Source: Lepisosteus oculatus (lineage: Eukaryota > Chordata > Actinopteri > Semionotiformes > Lepisosteidae). Taken from it: 64,000 nt of DNA. Made by a program: the position numbers and the translations under genes. The number at the start of each line of letters is the position of its first letter. Positions within the stretch are counted from its first letter, which is position 1. Shown here one piece after another: positions 9,501-63,700 of the stretch. A model generated the notes under the pieces. The model was given only the letters and a program-made list of their open reading frames with translations. It ran no database searches and was not told where the DNA came from. The DNA is taken from assembly GCF_040954835.1 (NCBI RefSeq), contig NC_090698.1:49362284-49426283 (forward strand), read 5' to 3'.

Positions 9501-11835
9501 TTTGATGATTGTGTGACTGTGCTGACAGGTTTGTTTTTGTATCCTTTTCCCAATTTCTAGTTTACAGTGACATTATCCCCGACTTTCTTTGAAAGCTTAT
9601 TTATACTCCAGGGTTGAATCTTTGCTTGAAATTCACTACCTGACTGAAGCTCTTAACAAAGTTGGGTTTTTATCATGAAATATGAGAACCACTGTTTTTT
9701 CACACAGAGGCCACTCAGCTAACTGTGTGGCTCATTAAGAGAATTTTGTGCACTTGAATTAATTTAGGTGTTCCACAGAAAAGGGTTTGAGAACTGAAGC
9801 AATCTTCAGACTTTTCCATTTTTCTTTCATAATAATTATCTATTTTTTCCTTTTTGGTTTTTGTTTTTAATGTGTGGAGTATGTTGTGTACATAACAAAT
9901 ATTAATTGTTGCTTCAGAATAGCATGACTGCAAGTTTTTAAACAAGACAGTATGAATACTTTGCAAGGGATTGAATACTTTTTCAAGACAGTGTAGAAAG
10001 AAGCACCTTCAAACACCTCTGTAGTGCAGTATCCATCCTGGGGATGTGCAGTAGCCATTTTGTGCCAGTGAGAAATGGTGGGAGAAAGAAGTGAGAAATT
10101 ATTGCAATAGTTGAAGGGGGAAATTTAGTTGGTCATACTGAGCATCCCTGAAGTGAAAGATCAGGACACTGGGGTTAGCAAATCCTGCTCCTACAAGTTT
10201 CAGTAATCAGTAATCAAGACAGCTCAATGACTTAACCAAAGGACTTGTACTAAGTAGTCAGGACCTCAGTTTAATATCTCACCTTGAGTACATCTTTTAT
10301 CTTGAGTAAAAAGTACAAAGGTTTAGATAATCTCTACTTAAAAATCTCAGTTGTTAATATTTTGTCTACTCTGTCCATATGTTACAATATTATAATTTCC
10401 CACTCATCTCAATAAATGTGTATATGTACATTTTTTATTTAATTGCTTTAAATAAAGTGTAGATGATATGATAACATTATTAGTTACTATTAATTTTTAG
10501 AACCCTCACATGTCAGTGGGAAAAGGTTTAGGTGTTGTTATAGTCATTTTAAACGACGGAAACTTTTTTAATAGGTTTAATTAGAAGAATTCATATAAAT
10601 TAAATTACTGTTGTAATTCCAAGAGACTGATATAATTCTAGTTTATGCTTCTTCAATAGCAATAAGAATGGTGTTAATGAAACGTATGTGTAAAGCTTTG
10701 TAAAACTCCTTTATTTTACCACTTAAGTTACAGAACAAATCTGTCATAATGTCAGTGAAGTCAGTACTTTTGTTTTGTCACTGAATTGTGTACTAACCAG
10801 CAGTATATAATATTCTCTTGCTTTTTACCTTTCTATAGTGGAACTTAAAGAGTCAGAGCTGAAAGACATAATTGAGAGGAAAGAAGGAGACATTCAAGAA
10901 CTGAAAAAGAAATTACGGGATCAAGAACGAGAAAAACAGAGTGAAATTATTAAACTTCAAATGGAGGTAAAATGCTTTTTACACAGTCTGTTGGTATTTG
11001 TTTGAATATTTATATGTGCATTGTTTAGGCTTTTTATGCTCAAGACAGTTGTGCATCTGAAGCCTTTTATGTTTTATCATGCTTGAGTCCCACTATGATA
11101 AGGATTACTCCATACGAAGAAGGACATAGTCACCAGTCCGGCCAATAGTCTGTGTAAAACTACTTTTACTTTATAATTCAGTTCAGCGCAAAGATGGCAA
11201 GAATACAGAGCACTTCAGTGAAAACACAGCAGCAAGATCCTTCCAATCTACTGCAAAACGTTTTTAAAAGGGTAAGTTGTGAGCCTCCTACTGTACACTA
11301 TTGTAAATCTATACCTTTTGCTTTTCAAGCATTATCATTAAGTAATGCTGCCTAGCTTAATTTGTTTCTCCCTAGACAGGGTGTCTAGGTGCAGATGTGT
11401 CTGGTCCTGCCTTGCACTTTATGTGCTCCAGGTTGCAATCCAGTAAATCTGCTTTTTTATTATGGCTGCATGGGTGGATCTATGATGTAAATACAGAGCA
11501 GCAGAGAAGAGATGTCTCCCATTAAAATGATATGGATTTTGTCACAGTCTTGTCACACTTTTGTCACAGGATGATGTTTAATTAAAAATGATGCCTTAGG
11601 TGTCTGACATCATTACTTATTTCAATCACTATGAAAAATTATGGATTGCGTAGAACGTCGCATAATAACGGCATATAACGTCAGAAGAGGCATATTTTTA
11701 TCAATTTCATAGAAGCTGCAGTTCATAGAAGAGGAGAAAAACAGAGAGATTGAAACCTTACGTCGTGCTGTCAGAGAGATGGAACAGCAGCTTGGATGTA
11801 CCCATGACTCCCACCCAAAAAGAAGGAAGTTTTAG
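3578..11835 (+). CDS. ccdc152: CCDC152, coiled-coil domain-containing protein 152 (8 coding exons)
   Basis: Coding exons: 3583-3645, 4698-4803, 6920-6988, 7146-7210, 7687-7789, 10839-10966, 11182-11271, 11713-11835 (TAG). All introns are GT-AG and phases join into one 248-residue frame, close to the roughly 254 residues of the human protein. Recognition rests on the N-terminal SVNLDKL, the GKNN block, the REKQ-EIIKLQ-E block and the C-terminal lysine/arginine-rich end (HPKRRKF), all like mammalian CCDC152. Glu/Lys/Leu-rich heptads predict a coiled coil over nearly the whole length; there is no signal peptide or membrane segment. The start ATG at 3583 follows an acceptor by five bases, so a non-coding exon lies upstream. 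The exon 5 donor must be at 7790 (gtaaat); the nearer-looking gtgtaa one base earlier breaks the frame. Molecular function is not known. It faces SELENOP tail to tail. Confidence 0.92.
4830..5065 (-). repeat. Dispersed repeat family A, partial inverted copy in CCDC152 intron 2
   Basis: Shares 'gatgaagcagttacaaaatg' and 'gtccaaagacctactggtag' type blocks with the other inverted copies. It starts just after the splice donor of coding exon 2. Confidence 0.65.
5066..6919. other. CCDC152 intron 2, remainder
   Basis: AT-rich intronic sequence with no recognised exon or repeat apart from the family A copy at its start. It ends in the acceptor before coding exon 3 (ttctttcag). Confidence 0.6.
8595..9993 (-). 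mobile_element. Old Tc1/mariner element in CCDC152 intron 5
   Basis: The left end CAGTGTCTTGCC and the inverted right end match over about 22 bases and are each flanked by the TA dinucleotide that Tc1 elements duplicate (8593-8594 and 9994-9995). The interior resembles the reverse strand of a Tc1 transposase gene: for example 'tgctgcttccaccatgcttg' around 9120 matches the GGG-S-MVW region in the two younger copies. The transposase is broken throughout with no usable frame, so the copy is ancient and inactive. It lies in the sense strand of an intron and should be removed by splicing. Confidence 0.75.
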
Positions 11836-12270
11836 CAGAATTATCTCTAAGACTGCAAAAAAAAAATATGAGTTAAAGTTTTATGCTCCAATGGTATTAA
11901 ATAATTCCAGAATGTAATGCTGAAGATATTCCTGGTGATACCTCAGTTATAGCATGTTGGCACAGTTTATTGAAAATATGTTATTTATTGTAGAAAGGTA
12001 TTTAAAAACGTAGAATAAGCAGTGTGCTGTATTAAAAATAAGATTTATTTGAAACATTCATAACAAGCATTACTTGTTCAGTCAATATTGGTTAACTTTT
12101 CAGCTTTCATGATTGATAGCATTTGCCATACATGTTATCAAGTATCTAGGAGGTTTGTTTTCCTAGACACTGTCATTAAGTAAGGAACATGCTATCAAAC
12201 AACACATCCATTTCTTAACTTTTAACTCATTGTCTTTCTTAACATTCTTTTGATTACTTTAATAAAACAA
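11836..12270. other. Converging 3' ends of CCDC152 and SELENOP
   Basis: CCDC152 stops at 11835. Plus-strand poly(A) candidates are ATTAAA at 11896-11901 and AATAAA at 12261-12266. Minus-strand (SELENOP) candidates are AATAAA at 12049-12044, 11989-11984 and 11971-11966. If CCDC152 uses the 12261 signal, the two mature mRNAs overlap by 200 bases or more, including the second SECIS element. Confidence 0.55.
12125..12190 (-). promoter_or_regulatory. SECIS element 2 (distal) in the SELENOP 3' UTR
   Basis: On the minus strand: an ATGA core (12176-12173) and C, then AGTGTCTAGG, an apical loop starting AAAAC, then CCTAGATACT and TGAT (12140-12137). The two arms form ten pairs including one G-U, flanked by the ATGA/TGAT non-Watson-Crick quartet, and the loop carries the required A-rich run. 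This is the standard selenocysteine insertion layout. SELENOP genes are known to carry two SECIS elements. Confidence 0.85.
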
Positions 12271-13009
12271 AATTGTGATTTCACAGACTGTTTAAGTTGT
12301 TAATACATTGAAATTAACAAAAAAAATCTTTGGCTTTTTTAAAATAGTTTTTGCATACTAGATAAGCTATATTTTAAGCCAGCCTGATCACACACCTATA
12401 AATTCCTGTTTTTGTTCCCTCCTGTTTTCTGAAATGTGCGATTCGACTAGCTTCAACTACACTAACATTGTTTGAACTCCAGGGTTAAGCTGTTAATTGT
12501 TTTTTGCTCTACCACGATATATCAAAAACGATAATATGAAATTTGCCTCAATGCAAAATTTGTGCCACATGGAAATCAAATTTTACTTTGAAGAAAAAAA
12601 AAGCTTTTATAATCACTTTGTATATTTTAAAGAGCTCTTTTTTATCTTAAACTAGTAGGGTGTTAGACTTGGAAGGTTTTAAAAGAACCTATTAAAAATT
12701 TACAAAATGTTAGAGGTAGTGACCATTATCGCTTTTTAAACTGTTCACATAATTGCCTTCTTTTCATTATTCTATTTAGGAAGGTACTGTAGTATTACAT
12801 TGTCCACAAAGTGTAAAATAAGTTCTTTGATCCCTTTTAACTTTTTGATGTTCTCATCTCTTCACAAAATTTAAGATGGTTACCTACACTACACAATTTA
12901 TAGCACAACTCTTCTTTTATATAGTTTTATAATGTTGTTACGCAGATTCTGTGCTTACAAAGTGGGTTTGATTAGTATGTCATTTGCATTGTTCCTCCAC
13001 TCTTCATTG

Positions 13010-13070
13010 CCTGGCTTCAAACAGGTACCCCTAGTGCTTAGTTTCTGCACCTGTCATCATTTAGGCAAAA
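13010..13070 (-). promoter_or_regulatory. SECIS element 1 (proximal) in the SELENOP 3' UTR
   Basis: On the minus strand: ATGA (13057-13054), then CAGGTGC, AGAAAC with unpaired AAA, GCAC, a bulge, ACCTG, and TGA (13019-13017). CAGGT pairs with ACCTG and GTGC with GCAC. It lies about 300 bases past the stop codon, as expected for the first of two SECIS elements. The internal bulge makes it a less regular hairpin than the distal one. Confidence 0.7.
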
Positions 13071-13360
13071 AGAGCATATAGTTGAAAAATGCATCAACAT
13101 GCCCTAACCACAAATAAAAAGCAGTCAATTTAATACTAGTTGGTAATAATCAAATGAGAACGTAGTCCTCTAAGGTAGGATGGTTAAGATAAAGGTGTTC
13201 TATAATTATTGTTGATCTCACGTTCTGCCAGACAGGTTGGTAATCTTAATGAATTGAATGCTGATGGTAGCAACAATGTACACAACTGGCTTGCTTTATA
13301 GAACTCCCTTTATCAGTGTGATGTTATTCCCAGGGCAGTGCAGTAGGAAAGAGAAACTGC

Positions 13361-13687
13361 TTACTGCTCCTGTCATATTCACCTCTCATTGCCTTGGGGT
13401 CAAGTTCAGGACTGCTCTGGCTGACCAGCTGCTGACGGCAGACGTCAGGCTTTGGAGGACGAGCGTCACTGTCAGGTTTCCCTGACGTGATTCCCGCCCT
13501 GCAGGCCCTGTCACTGGCAGGAAGCTGGAGGCTTTTCCTCACAGTGTCAGAAAGCTGCCTGGTCTCATCCCTCGCCGCCAAACAGCTGGCGACAGTGTCA
13601 GCATCAGCTGGAGGAAAGTAGGTCAGAAGACCCTTCTTTCCATTCTCAGCTGTACTGATGTTTTCACTTGGCTGCCCCTTTCTTTCA
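13361..13687 (-). other. Selenocysteine-rich C-terminal segment of SELENOP
   Basis: First base positions of the UGA codons (minus strand) are 13687, 13666, 13648, 13606, 13600, 13567, 13549, 13513, 13474, 13468, 13447, 13408, 13402, 13381 and 13375. Each lies in the frame entering from the histidine-rich region, and the spacing in codons was checked pair by pair. The U-C-U-H-C arrangement at residues 317-321 matches the conserved first cluster of the family. The chain ends at a TAA, not at a UGA. Confidence 0.9.
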
Positions 13688-15520
13688 TGGCCACTCTATA
13701 CGGAGGGGGAAGTCCACAACCTCCTGTTGGGATAGAAGGCTTGGGTTCTTAATTAACTGCTGCTGCTGATGTGTCTGTGAGTGCCTTTGTGTTTGGCCAT
13801 TGTTGAACTCCTGCTGTGAGCCATGATGATGCCTGCCATGGCCATGGTGATGCCCATGACTTGAATGCCTTCTGTGGCTCTGACGGCCCTCTTCACTGTG
13901 ATGGTGACCATGACCATGAGCATGAGGATGGCCATGGCTTTCAGGAGCCTCTTCAGGTTTATCTTCTGGCTTCCCTTCAGGCTTCACAGTGCTGTTGCAT
14001 GTTACAGGTAAGGATGAGCTCTACAAGAGATTTAAATTAATAAAGACTAAGGTCTGGTGTTTCATTTGGCATAAATTCATGAATGGTGATCCTCTAGGAA
14101 TTGTTTATTAAGTAAAGTATGTTCCTTTAGAAGGTACCAAAATGTGAAATTGAAAAACATCCTATTGGCGTTTGGTGTATAAATAGATACCTCTAATGAA
14201 CAGTTTCCACAGATATCCTTGCAGTACGTGTCTCTGATGGCATCCTCCACATATGACATAGTCAGCATGGAATATGGCAGCCCAAGATGATGTGTCAGAC
14301 TGCCACACCTGTCAGTGAAAAAGAGAAATTTCCCATTCCAGTTGAAAATGGTTGTTGAAACAACCATTACAAAAAAAACTATGCAAAGAGTAAAATAGGC
14401 CTAACCCTTAAATACAGTACAATTGGATTCATAGGTATACTCCTAAAAATGATGGACATCGAGAGGAAAAGTGTTCTCATTATGGAGGTACAACTATTGG
14501 ATGTATCCTTATCTAGAAAAACCTAAGACAAACAAATGCACCTGTCATAAATGAGAAAGTCATCTTTTTCTCCAGACAGGATCTTCCAAACATCTTCCTG
14601 AAGTGGGTCCTGGTCATACACCCTGATTTTCTGTGACATCTTCTTTTTGAGGACCGGATACAGGCGGTGAGACTGTTCTCCCTGGTGGTTAACAACCACG
14701 TAGGAGATGTTCACCAGACCCTGCTGCTCAAGTCTGAGGCGCAGAACATCCAATCTGTTCAAGAAAATTAGGCTGTAATTAATAACAATGTAACTTCTGA
14801 GCCCCCCATTAAAAATCATGCTTAATTTGGCTAAACAGCTAAAAAGAACTTGTAGTGCATGGCTATCATGAGTAATAAAAATCTTGCATCTTAATATTGT
14901 GATGGAGACTTGCAGGGGATATAGTTCAAACCTGATTTTGCAAGCCACAAAGCTAGTTATTCATTGTTAGGTGATGTACTGCAAGGATATGTTTTAAAAT
15001 GATTTTATAAAGAAAATGCACACTACCACATTAGCAATCCTGAGTCTTCCAATAGAAGACAAATAGTTATGTATGCATATCTATACACAACCCTGTATGC
15101 TATAGTGATTTGTAAAGAAGTTGTGAATGTTATTACACTTAGACATATTTAAACCAGAGAGGAAAAATACATTTGCATCATGACTTAATTCATAGCATTC
15201 CTTACTTTTGAACAAGATAATTTAGCTTAAACGATTATTTTGATCAGAACAATGTGTTAGAAAAGTCAAAAACGTGATTATTTGTACTGGCGTCTTGTTC
15301 ATTGCACATCAGTGTACCTGGATGCCTGCACCAAACAGAAAAGTCAGCTAGCCTGAAGAAGGGCCACCACTGTCACCCTCCCCGCCGAGTCCGTCATGGG
15401 CTGCTCGTTTCCGACGGCCCATTCTGGCGGGGTCTTACAGCGGCCGCCTCCGCCCTCGCTCTCCGCCCCGCCGACAGGCAGCAGGGCGACCGCGAGGACC
15501 AGGCTGAGCCCCGTCCACAT
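13361..15520 (-). CDS. selenop: SELENOP, selenoprotein P with 16 selenocysteine (UGA) codons
   Basis: Coding exons on the minus strand: 15520-15318, 14754-14542, 14308-14191, 14020-13361 (TAA at 13363-13361). All junctions are GT-AG and the joined frame is 397 residues if in-frame UGA is read as selenocysteine. Residues 1-19 are a signal peptide (MWTGLSLVLAVALLPVGGA). The thioredoxin-like domain has U59-L-F-C62, in the place of the family's UxxC redox motif, followed by NISYVVVNHQG and KDDFLIYDRCG blocks. A histidine-rich, metal- and heparin-binding type segment spans about residues 207-243. The tail carries 15 more UGA at residues 290, 297, 303, 317, 319, 330, 336, 348, 361, 363, 370, 383, 385, 392 and 394. 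The protein is secreted plasma selenium transport and antioxidant protein, made mainly in liver. A standard gene finder would cut it at the first UGA. Confidence 0.95.
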
Positions 15521-15600: not shown

Positions 15601-16402
15601 CCTACAGAAAGATTTCATTTCGAAATGCGATATGATTTACCTTTAGGAGCTAATAGATATTTAGGTTACCCCCCACGAAAAATCACAGTTAACTTCAAGA
15701 TTGAATTTTGACATGCTTTTGATTCGTTGTTTTATTTTTAAGTTAAAGTGCCCTGGCACTTCTGTGATCTGTAGGAAATAAGACCATTTTATACTGTTTG
15801 GTTGCTGCATTATGAAACACATGTTTTACTTCTGTTCTTTTGCTAAAAAATGAGGTTCGCATGATTCAAACTTCTTTTGCTGTAGAAATGAACTTGAAAC
15901 ATTAAGAAAATCTTGGGGAATTATATTTTCATCAGAAAAATGCCGTGGAAATTAAAACACAGCGTTTAATAGTTGTTTTTTTAAACATATTTTAGAGAAA
16001 TAGAATTCATTTTAGATTCATGAAAATCTTTTTCAAATACTATTTGATTCACTCTGAAGAAATGAAAAAAATCGTTTTGCAGTGTAAATTCTTTTAAATA
16101 GCTTTTCCATAAAACATTTTAAAATGAGATATTATTTAATAAGATTTTTAAAAATAATTATCTGTAAATGCCACTTGTCTTATAGTCTGTCCAAAATCTC
16201 TAAATGGTGTATTACAAAGTAAATAAAATGTATCAATGCAAATCTTTGAAATAAACCAGAGACCTTAAAATACTAAAAACCATGTCTCTGACAGCTGTTC
16301 ACACATTCCAGAACATAAGGCTGTGCTAATTACCCTCACACTCTTATTTTGTTTGAACCTAATGGTAAAAATAAAACATTCATATATTTGCATTTTTCTT
16401 AC

Positions 16403-16450
16403 CTTCTCTGGAAGTCTGCACTTCAGTCTCGTCCTGTCTTCTTCTCAAGA
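16403..16450 (-). other. Probable SELENOP non-coding exon 1
   Basis: A strong splice donor (GAGAAG then GTAAGA on the minus strand) ends this exon at 16403. The start is inferred from the TATA box about 30 bases upstream. Mammalian SELENOP also begins with a short non-coding exon. The exact start site is an estimate. Confidence 0.6.
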
Positions 16451-16478
16451 AAAACAATCCCTCCTACTGCTCCCCCCA

Positions 16479-16603
16479 TTTATACCCCACTTGTTTTTCC
16501 AAGTCTGGATATAGGGCAAAGTTCAGTCACTCCTCTGTAGGCATTGGAAGACATACAATCTGTTCTTCTTTTCTGCAGATACACTGGTGGATTTCTGCAA
16601 ACA
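16479..16603 (-). promoter_or_regulatory. SELENOP core promoter: TATA box and FOX-type site
   Basis: Minus-strand TATAAA at 16484-16479 sits in GGGGTATAAATGGGG, well placed for the exon ending at 16403. Further upstream, GCAAACA on the plus strand (16597-16603) reads TGTTTGC on the minus strand, a forkhead (FOXA/FOXO) core, next to a GTTAAT half-site like that of HNF1. Liver-type control through FOXO and HNF4 factors is known for mammalian SELENOP; its use here is inferred. Confidence 0.55.
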
Positions 16604-16821: not shown

Positions 16822-17030
16822 ACCTAGTCCTTTAATCCAGTGCAATTGATTTTAAAAGCTATGGTTCTAAGGATGGCAGATTTTGAGAGGAAAAGTGTTT
16901 TCATTATGGAGGAACAATTAAAGTATGTATCCTTATCTAGGCAAACCTAAGGTAAACAAATTCACCCACCCTAAATGAGAAAGTCATCTTTTTCTCCCAA
17001 ACATCTTCCTTGAAGTGTTCCTAAACTGTT
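16822..17030 (-). pseudogene. Decayed partial duplicate of SELENOP exon 2 and adjoining intron
   Basis: This stretch aligns with 14398-14620, inside SELENOP, over about 200 bases in the same orientation. Shared blocks include 'gagaggaaaagtgtt', 'tgtatccttatctag' and 'aatgagaaagtcatcttttt'. It covers the intron downstream of the second coding exon, the splice donor and the last part of that exon. The donor is mutated and about 14-18 bases of the exon are deleted, so it cannot act as an exon. It lies about 0.35 kb upstream of the SELENOP TATA box. Confidence 0.8.
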
Positions 17031-42259: not shown

Positions 42260-43066
42260 GTCAGCTACATGGTATGTTTTTTTTACTCATTTGTAAAGCT
42301 GTCTGTTGCAATTAAAAACATTTTTCTTTGTTTTTAAACTTGTTGTTTGGTCAGATCTTTAAGACACAAGATCACAACAATCACTTAAAACAAGGCCACA
42401 AAATCAACAGAAACTGTTTATCCACTGCTTATCCACAAAAAGGCCTTTCTTTTAGTTTTTGTATTGTTTTGGTATGATAGGTCACAGCTGCATGCTTTAA
42501 TATTATATATGACTTTTTCATTCTTTTCTAGAAGTGCAATTAAAGTATAATCAAGAAATGTTATTGATCTATTGAAAATGGTAAAACACCTGTTTTAGGA
42601 GTAGGAGCTATAAAATATGGTGTAAAAAGAGCAAAGCACGTAGAAACAGTGTGACCTAGTTTATATTATTGTTTATTATTTGCTAGTCTGATTCCCTTGT
42701 CCAGGGTGACTTACAGTGCAGAATGTTAACATTAATTTCACTGGGGACAACAACATCCAAAAATTTAATTAGAGGATGTTTGAGATCCTAGGTGGGATAA
42801 GTCTGGCTTAACCTAGTTGGTTAGTACATAACTATCCCCCATTCAGAGAGGAAACCGAGAAGATGTGGGTAGAGGAGGGTTGCTTGAAATAAATGCAAAG
42901 AACTTGTGCTTGATACATGTGTATATAGCTAATTTCCTCAAACAGCTAGTGTGTGATTGACTTGTCGTTGTTATCCCCCCTGAACTTCAGTTAATAACTT
43001 TAAATGTAAGTTTCTCAACAAAGCATTTCTTAAACGCCAAAGCCATATTTATTGTCCTAAAACAAA
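42260..43066. other. Intergenic DNA, nothing recognised
   Basis: AT-rich stretch between the ZNF131 poly(A) signal and the Tc1 element. No gene or repeat was recognised. Confidence 0.45.
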
Positions 43067-44663
<1,597 letters not shown>

Positions 44664-44889
44664 TATGTGTGTGCAGGAAAACCTAAATTGAAAGTATTAT
44701 ACTGCAATGCATGTAAGGATGATGATGGTTACCATTGAACATTGATTAACTGATTTTATTGCCATATTCCAACAGGTCAATTTCAGTCTGTAGGGTACGC
44801 TTAACTTAATAACTTCATAATGAAAAGAAAAGTTCTGTTTTTCACAAAATTCTCTACTGACAGCTGTCTAGGCTTCATTTGCCTTCAAT

Positions 44890-57025: not shown

Positions 57026-59146
57026 AGCTTTGGCTTCATGGTAAAGTCAGATTGGAAGCTGCATCTATAGTTAATAATAACCACATTTCAAAAACTTGTG
57101 TGAAGGAAAGGAAGATAGAAAGCAAATTAAACTGCTTATTGAATAGTTTCTATCATTAGCTTTTAATGGATTTTACAACCTACTTACAGTAACAGTATAG
57201 CATAACAAGTTATCCTCATTACAAGTATGGAGTTCTTGTAATATATTTGGTAGACGTAGTACCTAAAACAGTATTGAATAGTTTCTCTGGGAATTATATT
57301 GGAGTAGCACTTGCTAGTTAGTTATTGGATAGTAATGTACTAAGCGTGAAACTGTTGAACAGATGTCCACAAAAATGTAAAGTGAAGGCACAAACTGCCA
57401 AAAATTGAAAAGCGTTTTTCTTTTTTAATAAAGTTGTATCCATGGGCAAGTGAGCCCAATTTCCCTGCTGAAAAAGGTAAATCTCTACTGATAATATGCT
57501 TTTCACTGCTTGTATGTCAGTTAGCTCTTGGGCTTTAACACTGCCACCAACACCTGTTGGATTAGTATCTCTAATCTGGATCACAGATCATTTGTCAGCT
57601 AATTAATAATGTCCCTGGGCTTCAGATGCAGCTGTTGGAAGCTGCCTCAGTCCAACTGTCTGAAAAGGGCATTGTGTTGCTGTGTCAGAGAGATAGGCCT
57701 ACCACTTGAATGTTAAGATGCCAGCAAGCTGGATATTTGTTTGAGGTCCTTGCTGTTTGAATGCGTCTTCTCAGTTAATACCTTAAAGCACTTGAGAGTA
57801 ATTCAGAGCAGTCAATCTCCATGTACTGTATATTGTTCACGTTTAATACAAGTGCTTTTCAGATGGAAGGGCTCATTCAGTGCGACACAGTTGCTGCCAA
57901 ATGCATAATTAAAGGACAGTGAAAGTGCTGAAAGTTTGAAAAGGGGTCTGATAAACACAATGGAATAAAATAAAACATTTCTTTTATTAATCAGAATACA
58001 GTTTGTAAGACATAATATTCAATCTTTATCAAAGTCTGATGACTTATTACTTGCCTTTGTCAGGCTGAGAACAGGTATTTATAACCAGCCTTGCTTTGTT
58101 TAGCTACGTTTCAGGAAGTATTTAAAAAGAATGCTTTGTTTCATTCTAAATTTGGAGCCTATTTTATGTAATGGCTCTACCAAGTGTAAAACGAATGATA
58201 TACACTGAAGTGGAAGATGACCATTGAAAGTTATGTCAGCATAATGTTAAGAGATAGACTGATAAAAACTTACATCTAGGACTGAATTATTTCATTTCAC
58301 TAAAAATGATTGTTGGCATGAAGCATTTAAACATAAGGACATATAGCCATAGACAAAATCTTTCAAATATGGCTATTTGTCATATTTTCATATGCTGCCT
58401 TATATGGATTAACACAGTACAAAGATGTTTCAATGAATACTTTAAAGCATTCTCATGGTAAAGCATTTACATAAAAATAGTTACAGCTCTAGCTAATATA
58501 ATTGTCATATACAGTATGTCACTTTTCCACACTGTATCCGCTGTGCCGCAAACACATGAATCCATTAAGTTAGAAATCAAAGTTGATACAGGAACGACAC
58601 CATTCCCTCGCGATAACATATCAGGGGCAGCAGATAGAGCCTAGGTAGATGAATATAGTGTTGAGTTTATTGACAATAATAGGTGGTTTCATGTATCTAT
58701 CAGAGCTATTAGATTGGCAAACACCCTCATTCGTAGACGGGGTATTTTTAAGTCTATGTCAATGCTCATCTTGTCGGCTTCCCCTGCCATTTCCAAGAGT
58801 ATTGCACCATACACACTCCTTTTGCTAGGACATGGGGAACATACACTTTCTTGAGTGGGTGATGACCCTCAGGCACTGTTGTCCCTTTTGAAGGCAGAAA
58901 ACAACCACAGACAGGTGGCGAAGCAGACATTGGCTCAGTTTGATTCTAGCGATTGAAACACATTGAGGTAACTTGTTCTTTGACTGTTTGGAGTCTGGTT
59001 TCCTTATTTAATCAATCCTAATTTATGAAAATAAATGTAAAAAGTTTTGAAGCTGTTTTAAAAAATTGCTTTAGCAAAAATGAATTACTGCCCATATTGC
59101 AGTTGTTTCCGCAGCCTTGCTGACTTGGTTTCCTTGGATATATGTA
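57026..59146. other. Intergenic or intronic DNA, nothing recognised
   Basis: About 58550-58970 has a slightly different composition and may be an old mobile element, but no hallmark was found. Confidence 0.4.
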
Positions 59147-60776
59147 CAGTGCCTTGCGAAAGTATTCGGCCCCCTTGAACTTTTCAACCTTTTGCCACAT
59201 TTCAGGCTTCAAACATAAAGATATAAATTTTTTATTTTATGTGAAGAATCACCAACAAGTGGGACACAATTGTGAAGTGAAACGAAATCTATTGGATTTT
59301 TGAAACTATTTTAACTAATAAAAAAATGAAAAGTGGGGCGTGCAAAATTATTGGGCCCCCTTGCGTTAATACTTTGTAGAGCCAACTTTTGCTGCGATTA
59401 CAGCTGCAAGTCGCTTGGGGTATGTCTCTATCAGTTTTGCACATCGAGAGACTGAAATTCTTGCCCATTCTTCCTTGCAAAACAGCTCGAGCTCAGTGAG
59501 GTTGGATGGAGAGCGTTTGTGAACAGCAGTTTTCAGCTCTTTCCACAGATTCTCGATTGGATTCAGGTCTGGACTTTGACTTGGCCATTCAAACACCTGG
59601 ATACGTTTATTTGTGAACCATTCCTTTGTAGATTTTGCTGTATGTTTGGGATCATTGTCTTGTTGGAAGATAAATCTCCGTCCCAGTTTCAGGTCTTTTG
59701 CAGACTCCAACAGGTTTTCATCCAGAATGGTCCTGTATTTGGCTGCATCCATCTTCCCCTCAATTTTAACCATCTTCCCTGTCCCTGCTGAAGAAAAGCA
59801 GGCCCAAACCATGATGCTGCCACCACCATGTTTGACAGTGGGGATGGTGTGTTGAGGGTGATGAGCTGTGTTGCTTTTACGCCAAACATATCGTTTTGCA
59901 TTGTGGCCAAAAAGTTCGATTTTGGTTTCATCTGACCAGAGCACCTTCTTCCACATGTTTGGGGTGTCTCCCAGGTGGCTTGTGGCAAACTTTAGACGAG
60001 ACTTTTTATGGATATCTTTGAGAAATGGCTTTCTTCTTGCCACTCTTCCATAAAGGCCAGATTTGTGCAGTGTAAGACTGATTGTTGTCCTATGGACAGG
60101 CTCTCCCACCTCAGCTGTAGTTCTCTGCAGTTCATCCAGAGTGATCATGGGCCTCTTGGCTGCATCTCTGATCAGTCTTCTCCTTGTCTGAGCTGAAAGT
60201 TTAGAGGGACGGCCAGGTCTTGGTAGATTTGCAGTGGTCTGATACTCCTTCCATTTCAAGATGATCGCTTGCACAGTGCTCCTTGGGATGTTTGAAGCTT
60301 GGGAAATCTTTTTGTATCCAAATCCGGCTTTAAACTTCTCCACAACAGTATTACGGACCTGCCTGGTGTGTTCCTTGGTCTTCATGATGCTCTCTGGGCT
60401 TTCAACAGAACCTTGAGACTATCACAGAGCAGGTGCATTTATACAGAGACTTGATTACACACAGGTGGATTCTATTTATCACCATCAGTCATTTAGGACA
60501 ACATTGGATCATTCAGAGATCCTCGCTGAACTTCTGGAGTGAGTTTGCTGCACTGAAAGTAAAGGGGCCGAATAATTTTGCACGCCCCACTTTTCATTTT
60601 TTTATTAGTTAAAAAAGTTTCAAAAATCCAATAGATTTCGTTCCACTTCACAATTGTGTCCCACTTGTTGGTGATTCTTCACATAAAATAAAAAATTTAT
60701 ATCTTTATGTTTGAAGCCTGAAATGTGGCAAAAGGTTGAAAAGTTCAAGGGGGCCGAATACTTTCGCAAGGCACTG
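59147..60776 (-). mobile_element. Complete Tc1/mariner transposon with intact transposase
   Basis: A 1630 bp element flanked by TA on both sides (59145-59146 and 60777-60778). The ends begin CAGTGCCTTGCGAAAGTATT and form inverted repeats of about 215 bases that differ at only a few positions by eye, which points to a recent insertion. The single gene between them is uninterrupted. The plus strand around it shows the usual reverse-complement Tc1 appearance, as in the two older copies in this window, which have different ends and so belong to different subfamilies. Confidence 0.97.
59366..60385 (-). CDS. Tc1-type DDE transposase, intact, 339 residues
   Basis: The enzyme cuts its own element out and pastes it at TA sites. 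Residues 1 to about 110 are the paired-like DNA-binding region with two helix-turn-helix parts (KISQASNIPRSTVQ in the first) and an AT-hook-like GRPSK at about 58-62, a likely nuclear signal overlapping TRRRLIRD. The catalytic triad is D152 (in LWSDETKIELFG), D243 (in [11 protein letters not shown]) and E278 (in NPIENLW). There are 34 residues between the last two, making it DD34E, the Tc1 class. A glycine-rich box, KHGGGSIMVWACF, lies between the first two. Length matches the 340 residues usual for the family, with no stop or frameshift. It starts at ATG 60385 (MKTKEHTRQVRN). Very likely a young insertion, possibly able to move. Confidence 0.95.
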   Translation of the reverse strand: MKTKEHTRQVRNTVVEKFKAGFGYKKISQASNIPRSTVQAIILKWKEYQTTANLPRPGRPSKLSAQTRRRLIRDAAKRPMITLDELQRTTAEVGEPVHRTTISLTLHKSGLYGRVARRKPFLKDIHKKSRLKFATSHLGDTPNMWKKVLWSDETKIELFGHNAKRYVWRKSNTAHHPQHTIPTVKHGGGSIMVWACFSSAGTGKMVKIEGKMDAAKYRTILDENLLESAKDLKLGRRFIFQQDNDPKHTAKSTKEWFTNKRIQVFEWPSQSPDLNPIENLWKELKTAVHKRSPSNLTELELFCKEEWARISVSRCAKLIETYPKRLAAVIAAKVGSTKY

Positions 60777-60778
60777 TA

Positions 60779-63700
60779 TATAATAATTGTGGGCAGAGAC
60801 CAAGGACTATGACTATGGGGCAGCTGCCACTAGAGGTCACTATACAGAAGGCAATGATGGCTGTATAATTAAATTAGTTTTATTCACAACCTACTCATAA
60901 AGGTTTATTTACACCACGGGTAATAGCATTTCTGAAATTCCATTATAAAAGACAAGACATTATTAGGTTAGCCCTCGAGTATACTTAAATTATGTCTTCA
61001 CCGAGATCCAAGAGGGGGCTATAGAACAAGTTCTCTTACTGTGGCCTACTGTTATCTCTAATGGATGAGGCTTCGCCCTAAAAGAGGGTTAAGAAAAGAA
61101 TATCTCAGATATTAGGACAAACACTGGCTCTCTGCTTGCACTCCTAGTGTACATTGGACACCACTGGGAGCCTAAAGTGCTCACCTTCTTTTGAACACCA
61201 GTGAAAATCTGATTAAAGCATTTTTTAGAGCTTCGCTTCTGAGGGCTCTTGTTCGTATGTGTAAATATGTGTTTAAACAGCCTAGCCGGGTGTCTGAAAT
61301 GGCTTCAAAATTAGAACGTCTCTGTTCGTGTGCACCCTCCTGCAAATGTATCCCCCTTCTCACCTTTTAGGTTTTAATAAATGGGTTGGCTGAAAGGATG
61401 GCTTGTCCGCGGGTTTTTGAGAACCATATACGCTGAAAGGGTTTTCTGATTCTTTGTGTCGTTCTTCTCTGTTTTTTCTATTAGAATTTACTGTTTCTCT
61501 TTTGCTTTAAAATAGATGGTTTGGAAAATAGAAAGGAAATGTTACTACTTAAAACTTTTTTTAATCAACTAACTCTGGCAAAAAGTATAAGTAGTAACAA
61601 GACCCTACATGAATGTTTTGATTCCATGATTTACAAAATCCCATACAGAGTGCTGTGAAAATATATTCAGTTATTTTTCTTATGTTTATAAATTTTGTTG
61701 AAGACACTTTAATTCACCCATCCCTCGATTTACATGTAAATCATTTTTACTTTGAATGTAAAACCTTTCAACTTATTCCCTAGTCTACGTTGTGTAAAGA
61801 ACATGATTATAGAAAAATGATACAATAAAACTATTTATAGATTTAGGAATTTCTTCAGCCTATATTGTTTTCTTATGCACTTTATATATTTTAGTCTTGT
61901 ATTAAATATATTCTTATATTTTTGCATACTTTCCTTTTACATTCAAACCGTAACAAGCCCTACAGCATGTAGCCACATACCACAGGGGATCTCCTTTTCT
62001 CTTGCAAGACTAATTATCTTCAGGAAAATGTTAATTACTTTTGAATATAGGCTGTTTCTCTTTGTTATTTTTCACACGAGGGAATATTTTCTCAAAATAC
62101 CTTCTCAAAAACAATGAGTGGTGCTACCAATGTACAGTAGAGATTGAGTGATTAATAAGATATCCCTGTAGCACAAAATCCAATTGCCCACTGTAGCTTT
62201 CTGTACAAGAGATGTGCGAAGCAGTACAATAAGTAACATCATGTCAATAATTAACAATGTTTCCCAAAGGAAAAACTTGCAAATAAACTATGATTTGTGG
62301 AAAATAAATGAGTAGGCTGTCTTTTTGGGAAAAAAAAAACATATACAAGTAAATTTCCTTTTCAGATTCCAAACAAAGCAAAGTTAAGAATGGGAAATAG
62401 TTAAACACGGGAAAGTCAGTTGGTCCTGAAAGAGATTTTTCTTAGCAGGATGACACAGCTTTTCTCAGCACAAAGAGCCAACATTCACAATTGTTAGTAA
62501 TTTCTTTGGTATGTCTGTCATAGTCTATATCAAAATATGGTTGATAATAGGTGAGCTGCAATAAGACTGTTAGTGACCTTAGTTACAACAGCAGTTTCAA
62601 AAAATTAAATTGCACGCAGAGCTAGAACTTGGATGTGTATCTAGTTAGAAGACCTATTTCTGTGATATATTAATTTGTCCTTCCAAAAATGGAATTAAAA
62701 TGTGTTTTTAAAACTTTAAAAATGTAAAAACTCAGTTTAAAAAATCTTTCCTTTAATACTTTTATGTCTAGTACTGGTAGGATTGTTTTTCACAAACCAG
62801 TTGATTGCGAACTCTGTGTTCTTAATCCCGCTGTGACAGCGTCTTAGCGAGGCTTGCCAAACTGCAGATCATTGTCTTACTCTGTTTATGACATTATGGC
62901 TCATCCATCCAGCCGGCAGTGATTGTAGCTGTTCCTCTGTGGTGAGAGAAGCTTTTAGGTCAGTTATGTAACTACAATCAGGTTTTTGCAGCCATAGTGA
63001 CAGTACACACTTCAGAAGTGCTTTGTGGCTTAAACCAATCCTAGCTGCGAAGTCCAACTAGCTAGTTGAAGATTTTTTTTTTCTGGAAGACCTGAGGAAA
63101 GGAGGGCTTGACTATTGTGAAGATACACAGAGAAGTGCAGCAATAAATGTATTCCGTGTTTTCAGGAAAACCATTTAGGTTCTGGCTGAATTTGTTCTGT
63201 TCCTCTACTTTAAAAAAATTAAACGCTACTGTTCATGAGAGAAAAATCCCAAACTGGAAAGAGTGAATCTGTTAAGAAGGCAATTACTTTCATGGCAAGA
63301 AACTGATTACACTGATTTTGTTAAATTAAAATAATTTCTCCTTCTATTTGAAAGGTATCATGTGCTGACTTATACTTATGCAAGAAACCCCTCCCATTAT
63401 TTTGCATCTCATATAAATCTGATTTATAATTGGTTCATAATTTTGGAATGCAGAAAACAAGTGTGTTCCATGCATTATACCAAGAGAGTTTAGTGGTACA
63501 GGGTTACAGCTAAATGTCATGGAGCTTTTGCATAACAGGGAACTAACCCCCAAGTCTAGGTCATTCAAAGTCACAGTCTTTTTATTTAAATAATTTCTAC
63601 CCAAGAAAAAATACAAGAATGAAAAGAAAAATAGAACAAATGTTCAGCAAAGTATATGCTTTGCTGGATAAAATGTCATATTATATCATCAAAATGCTTC

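Follow-up and report, generated by a model that had tools for sequence, protein, structure and literature searches.

The 64,000 nucleotides (nt) of Lepisosteus oculatus DNA analysed here (assembly GCF_040954835.1, contig NC_090698.1, positions 49,362,284 to 49,426,283; hereafter the window, to which all coordinates refer) carry on the minus strand a gene for selenoprotein P, SELENOP, the selenium carrier of the blood. With a probability of about 97%, we consider this locus to be an intact vertebrate SELENOP of the SelPa type, whose 16 in-frame UGA codons would be decoded as selenocysteine (Sec) through selenocysteine insertion sequence (SECIS) elements of its 3′ untranslated region (3′UTR). 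The exon model, the reading frame, the domain matches and the first of these elements (SECIS 1) are directly supported.

Gene model and reading frame

Joining four coding exons yields a frame of 397 amino acids (aa) that opens with an ATG at 15520 and closes with a TAA at 13363-13361, and all three introns of the coding region run from GT to AG. The exons are listed below, the coding ones as they stand in the spliced frame.

16403 to 16460 (upper limit approximate), minus strand: probable non-coding exon 1 of SELENOP, read in the sequence
15318 to 15520, minus strand: first coding exon, with the ATG, a signal-peptide-like start and ULFC (Sec59)
14542 to 14754, minus strand: coding exon, N-terminal domain (SelP_N match)
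14191 to 14308, minus strand: coding exon, N-terminal domain (SelP_N match)
13361 to 14020, minus strand: last coding exon, with the His-rich segment, the tail of 15 UGA codons and the TAA stop (SelP_C match)

Exon 1 is accompanied by a GTAAG donor at 16402 and an upstream TATAAA within 16476-16485, both read in the sequence, and the probable 5′UTR portion of the first coding exon runs on to an acceptor at about 15601. The 16 UGA codons of the spliced frame comprise one in the N-terminal redox motif, U59-L-F-C62 (UxxC), and 15 in the last exon, so that Sec would occupy aa 59, 290, 297, 303, 317, 319, 330, 336, 348, 361, 363, 370, 383, 385, 392 and 394. The end of the first UGA (UGA1) lies 26 nt before the exon junction, a distance described as conserved in PMC5133445. 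The middle segment is rich in histidine, with 20 of 28 His falling within aa 207-262. An earlier sequence-only reading of this DNA had proposed a SELENOP of four coding exons with one Sec in the redox motif and 15 in the tail; its coordinates proved exact and its counts right, and matches to both SelP domains now accompany them. Rebuilding the spliced frame also confirmed its statement that the frame stays open to a final TAA only if UGA is read as Sec.

Upstream of the promoter, positions 16852-16997 hold a decayed direct copy of the SELENOP intron 3/exon 3 border (14428-14573), with 117 of 146 positions identical, the remnant of a partial duplication.

The open tail frame is by itself weak evidence, since 5.3% of 5000 base shuffles of the 109-codon stretch were also free of TAA and TAG. 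At least 15 in-frame TGA codons, in turn, occurred in none of the 5000 shuffles (mean 1.5), and the other two minus-strand frames of the tail contain 0 and 3. A chance open frame was rejected on this shuffle result and on the SelP_C match, which was obtained in this frame only of the three. Read by the standard code, in which UGA is a stop, the locus could be a decayed SELENOP copy whose UGA codons are true stops; the nearby decayed fragment at 16852-16997 would fit such a pseudogene. We hold this to be very improbable, as the frame is free of TAA, TAG and frameshifts before its end, its three introns retain GT..AG, SECIS 1 is present, all ten human Sec positions are kept and SelP_C spans the tail.

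Family identity

The assignment of the intact frame to SELENOP relies on two Pfam families, SelP_N (PF04592), which matches aa 23-265 with an E value of 1e-111, and SelP_C (PF04593), which matches the UGA-rich tail at aa 294-395 (E 7.7e-13, Sec entered as Cys). Run on the last 126 aa alone, SelP_C scored 52.2 bits with Sec given as C and 29.3 bits over 64 residues with Sec masked as X (cut-off 28.8), and no Pfam family was found in the other two minus-strand frames of the tail at E up to 1. In an alignment with an approximate human SELENOP sequence of 381 aa and 10 Sec, the protein was identical at 90 of 159 residues over aa 20-178; its 16 Sec paired with Sec in ten cases, accounting for all ten of the human protein, with Cys in five and with Thr in one. 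Change from Sec to Cys in the tail, upstream of and within the receptor-binding part, is the published pattern of variation (PMC4699779), with which the Sec/Cys pattern deduced from this alignment agrees. A sequence search of PDB gave a single weak match, to the His tract (E 0.097), and tblastn with the N-terminal 178 aa found no relatives in viral or bacterial/archaeal genome contigs, which is expected for a vertebrate gene.

SECIS elements and layout of the 3′UTR

The following features were located downstream of the stop codon.

12995 to 13080, minus strand: SECIS 1 including its lower helix (Rfam RF00031 and fold)
12201 to 12994, minus strand: inter-SECIS stretch, 794 nt, 70.8% A+T (from the sequence)
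12258 to 12263, minus strand: ATTAAA, possible poly(A) signal between SECIS 1 and SECIS 2 (sequence match only)
12115 to 12200, minus strand: probable SECIS 2 including its lower helix (sub-threshold RF00031, core scan and fold)
12044 to 12049, minus strand: AATAAA, probable main poly(A) signal, 65 nt past the SECIS 2 hairpin (sequence match only)

SECIS 1 matches the Rfam family SECIS_1 (RF00031) at 13069-13006 with 37.2 bits (gathering threshold 35), the sole match in the window at that level. Its core, AUGA..AAA..UGAA, lies at 13060-13016, and together with its flanks it forms a lower helix (fold z −3.65, 1 of 200 shuffles equally good). A second SECIS element of the gene is probable. In a focused Rfam search of the 501 bases at 11900-12400, SECIS_1 aligned over the whole model at 12184-12127 (30.6 bits, E 0.00038), the next-best family scoring 17.7 bits; the core, AUGA..AAAA..UGAU at 12176-12137, is intact and ranked first among the 10 matches of a loose core scan, and with its flanks the element forms a lower helix (z −5.60, 0 of 200 shuffles equally good). 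Under a strict core rule, the whole window gave six matches at five places on its two strands, two of the five falling in the SELENOP 3′UTR on the correct strand. Random 3′UTRs of matched length and dinucleotide composition contained core matches in 0 of 300 cases, and a separate run gave 43 matches in 3000. The sub-threshold Rfam matches other than SECIS_1 (4 of 5 and 14 of 15 rows) were judged to be due to chance.

Several results weigh against an intact SELENOP that decodes 16 Sec through these elements. SECIS 2, at 30.6 bits, stays under the gathering threshold of 35 and is absent from the list at that level, and the strict core rule is also satisfied at three further places on the two strands of the window. 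Likewise, the Sec-masked tail clears the SelP_C cut-off by only 0.5 bit, and local RNA folding showed nothing unusual around UGA1 (z −0.19) or the start codon (z −0.26).

The distance from the stop codon to SECIS 1 is 280 nt, close to the 254 nt of human SELENOP, whereas the 794 nt between the two hairpins compare with 358 nt in human (PMC9337670) and with a mean of 334 nt in vertebrates (PMC3316567); the hairpin limits used here, 86 nt each, are near the human 83 and 81 nt. More than double that mean, this wide spacing is the one mildly unusual feature of the gene. Compared with the rest of the 64-kb window, the inter-SECIS stretch gave no match above chance, so no insertion is seen.

Proposed decoding

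One non-coding and four coding exons would be spliced together into the SELENOP mRNA, whose SECIS hairpins would bring in the Sec machinery, so that the 16 UGA codons would be read as Sec and translation would end at the UAA. This machinery comprises SBP2 and eEFSec with Sec-tRNA. SECIS 2 would act mainly on the first UGA and SECIS 1 on the later ones, a model supported in PMC5133445. The product would be secreted and would consist of an N-terminal domain bearing the UxxC motif, a middle part rich in His, and a tail rich in Sec that would deliver selenium to tissues; the splicing, the Sec decoding, the secretion and the selenium transport role are inferred. Decoding of a real SELENOP may also often end at UGA 59 or at early UGAs of the tail, the main product then holding far fewer than 16 Sec. 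We give this a substantial chance, somewhat short of even, and it would qualify the 16-Sec reading without replacing it, while the two SECIS elements would favour processive decoding.

CCDC152 and the gene neighbourhood

SELENOP stands tail to tail with the C-terminal part of CCDC152, the 3′ end of which spans 11182-12290 on the plus strand. Its last two exons lie at 11182-11271 and from 11713, with the stop at 11835; the encoded peptide shares 34 of 70 residues (E 2e-20) with an approximate human CCDC152 sequence and has sub-threshold matches only in Pfam. Further along the window, BTB and C2H2 exons were detected by Pfam at 33-42 kb, which we tentatively take to be ZNF131. Synteny around SELENOP is described as conserved from zebrafish to human (PMC6301783).

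The human SELENOP and CCDC152 genes are likewise arranged tail to tail (PMC8266573 and PMC5133445), and human CCDC152 RNA, antisense to SELENOP including the SECIS, reduces SELENOP translation (PMC8266573). Candidate CCDC152 poly(A) signals occur here at 11896, 12031 and 12261, with others further on, and among these three only the last (AATAAA, plus strand, 12261-12266) would carry the CCDC152 RNA across SECIS 2; the antisense overlap is thus dependent on the choice of signal. On the SELENOP side, an mRNA without SECIS 2 would be expected if the ATTAAA at 12258-12263 were used. That 16-Sec decoding is tuned in this lineage by omitting SECIS 2, or by masking it with CCDC152 antisense RNA, is an unlikely and speculative idea. 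If true, the antisense regulation described for the human gene would apply in fish as well, and the gene would gain greater weight if the wide SECIS spacing and the CCDC152 overlap proved to regulate decoding in fish.

Comparison with known selenoproteins P

Sixteen Sec is an ordinary number for a fish, and the gene adds to a known family. According to PMC4699779, vertebrate SELENOP ranges from 7 to 18 Sec, with 15-17 in every fish for which it had been annotated by 2015. The designation of a high-selenium form in the sequence-only reading holds relative to human SELENOP, with 10 Sec, and fails among fish, for which 16 is usual; the 17 Sec that it gave for zebrafish found no confirmation in the literature consulted. 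A close counterpart is SelPa2 of rainbow trout and Atlantic salmon, which has 16 Sec in 399 aa, as compared with 397 aa here, SelPa1 having 17 Sec. SelPa2 also shares the five exons, the non-coding exon 1, the UxxC in the first coding exon and the placement of all other Sec in the last, and differs, by description, in having one predicted SECIS, whereas here one lies above and one below the Rfam cut-off (PMC6301783).

Human SELENOP resembles the present gene in its domains, in its ten Sec positions, which are all Sec here, in its two SECIS, the second of which is probable here, and in the opposite-strand CCDC152 at its 3′ end, and differs in having 10 Sec instead of 16. Sea urchin SELENOP (28 Sec; PMC2397514) and the bivalve proteins of PMC8230778 (oyster, 46 Sec; one bivalve, 132 Sec) are multi-UGA as well, but far exceed the 16 found here.

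The five-exon plan is common to SelPa and SelPb in zebrafish and medaka and would fit either paralogue. SelPb of salmonids, however, has 1-4 Sec and one SECIS (PMC6301783), whereas 16 Sec, two SECIS matches and an adjoining CCDC152 are found here, which makes SelPb hardly credible and SelPa the preferred assignment.

One more apparently intact 16-Sec SELENOP is of use for annotation, since genes of this sort are poorly treated in many database records (PMC12822975). According to that paper, 11% of vertebrate selenoprotein genes in Ensembl and 5% in GenBank are well annotated, 77% are right in RefSeq, and the first Sec of SELENOP is well annotated in 24% of cases in Ensembl. The expectation that an automatic pipeline would truncate the protein at U59 or report a pseudogene is only partly right, holding more for Ensembl and GenBank than for RefSeq.

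Other elements in the window

A Tc1/Sleeping Beauty-like transposon lies at 59141-60782, with an uninterrupted frame of 350 aa and inverted ends of 227 nt that are 97% complementary. A second Tc1-like element, at 43062-44668, has inverted ends of 146 nt, also 97% complementary, and contains transposase-like frames, judged by eye, at 43536-44228.
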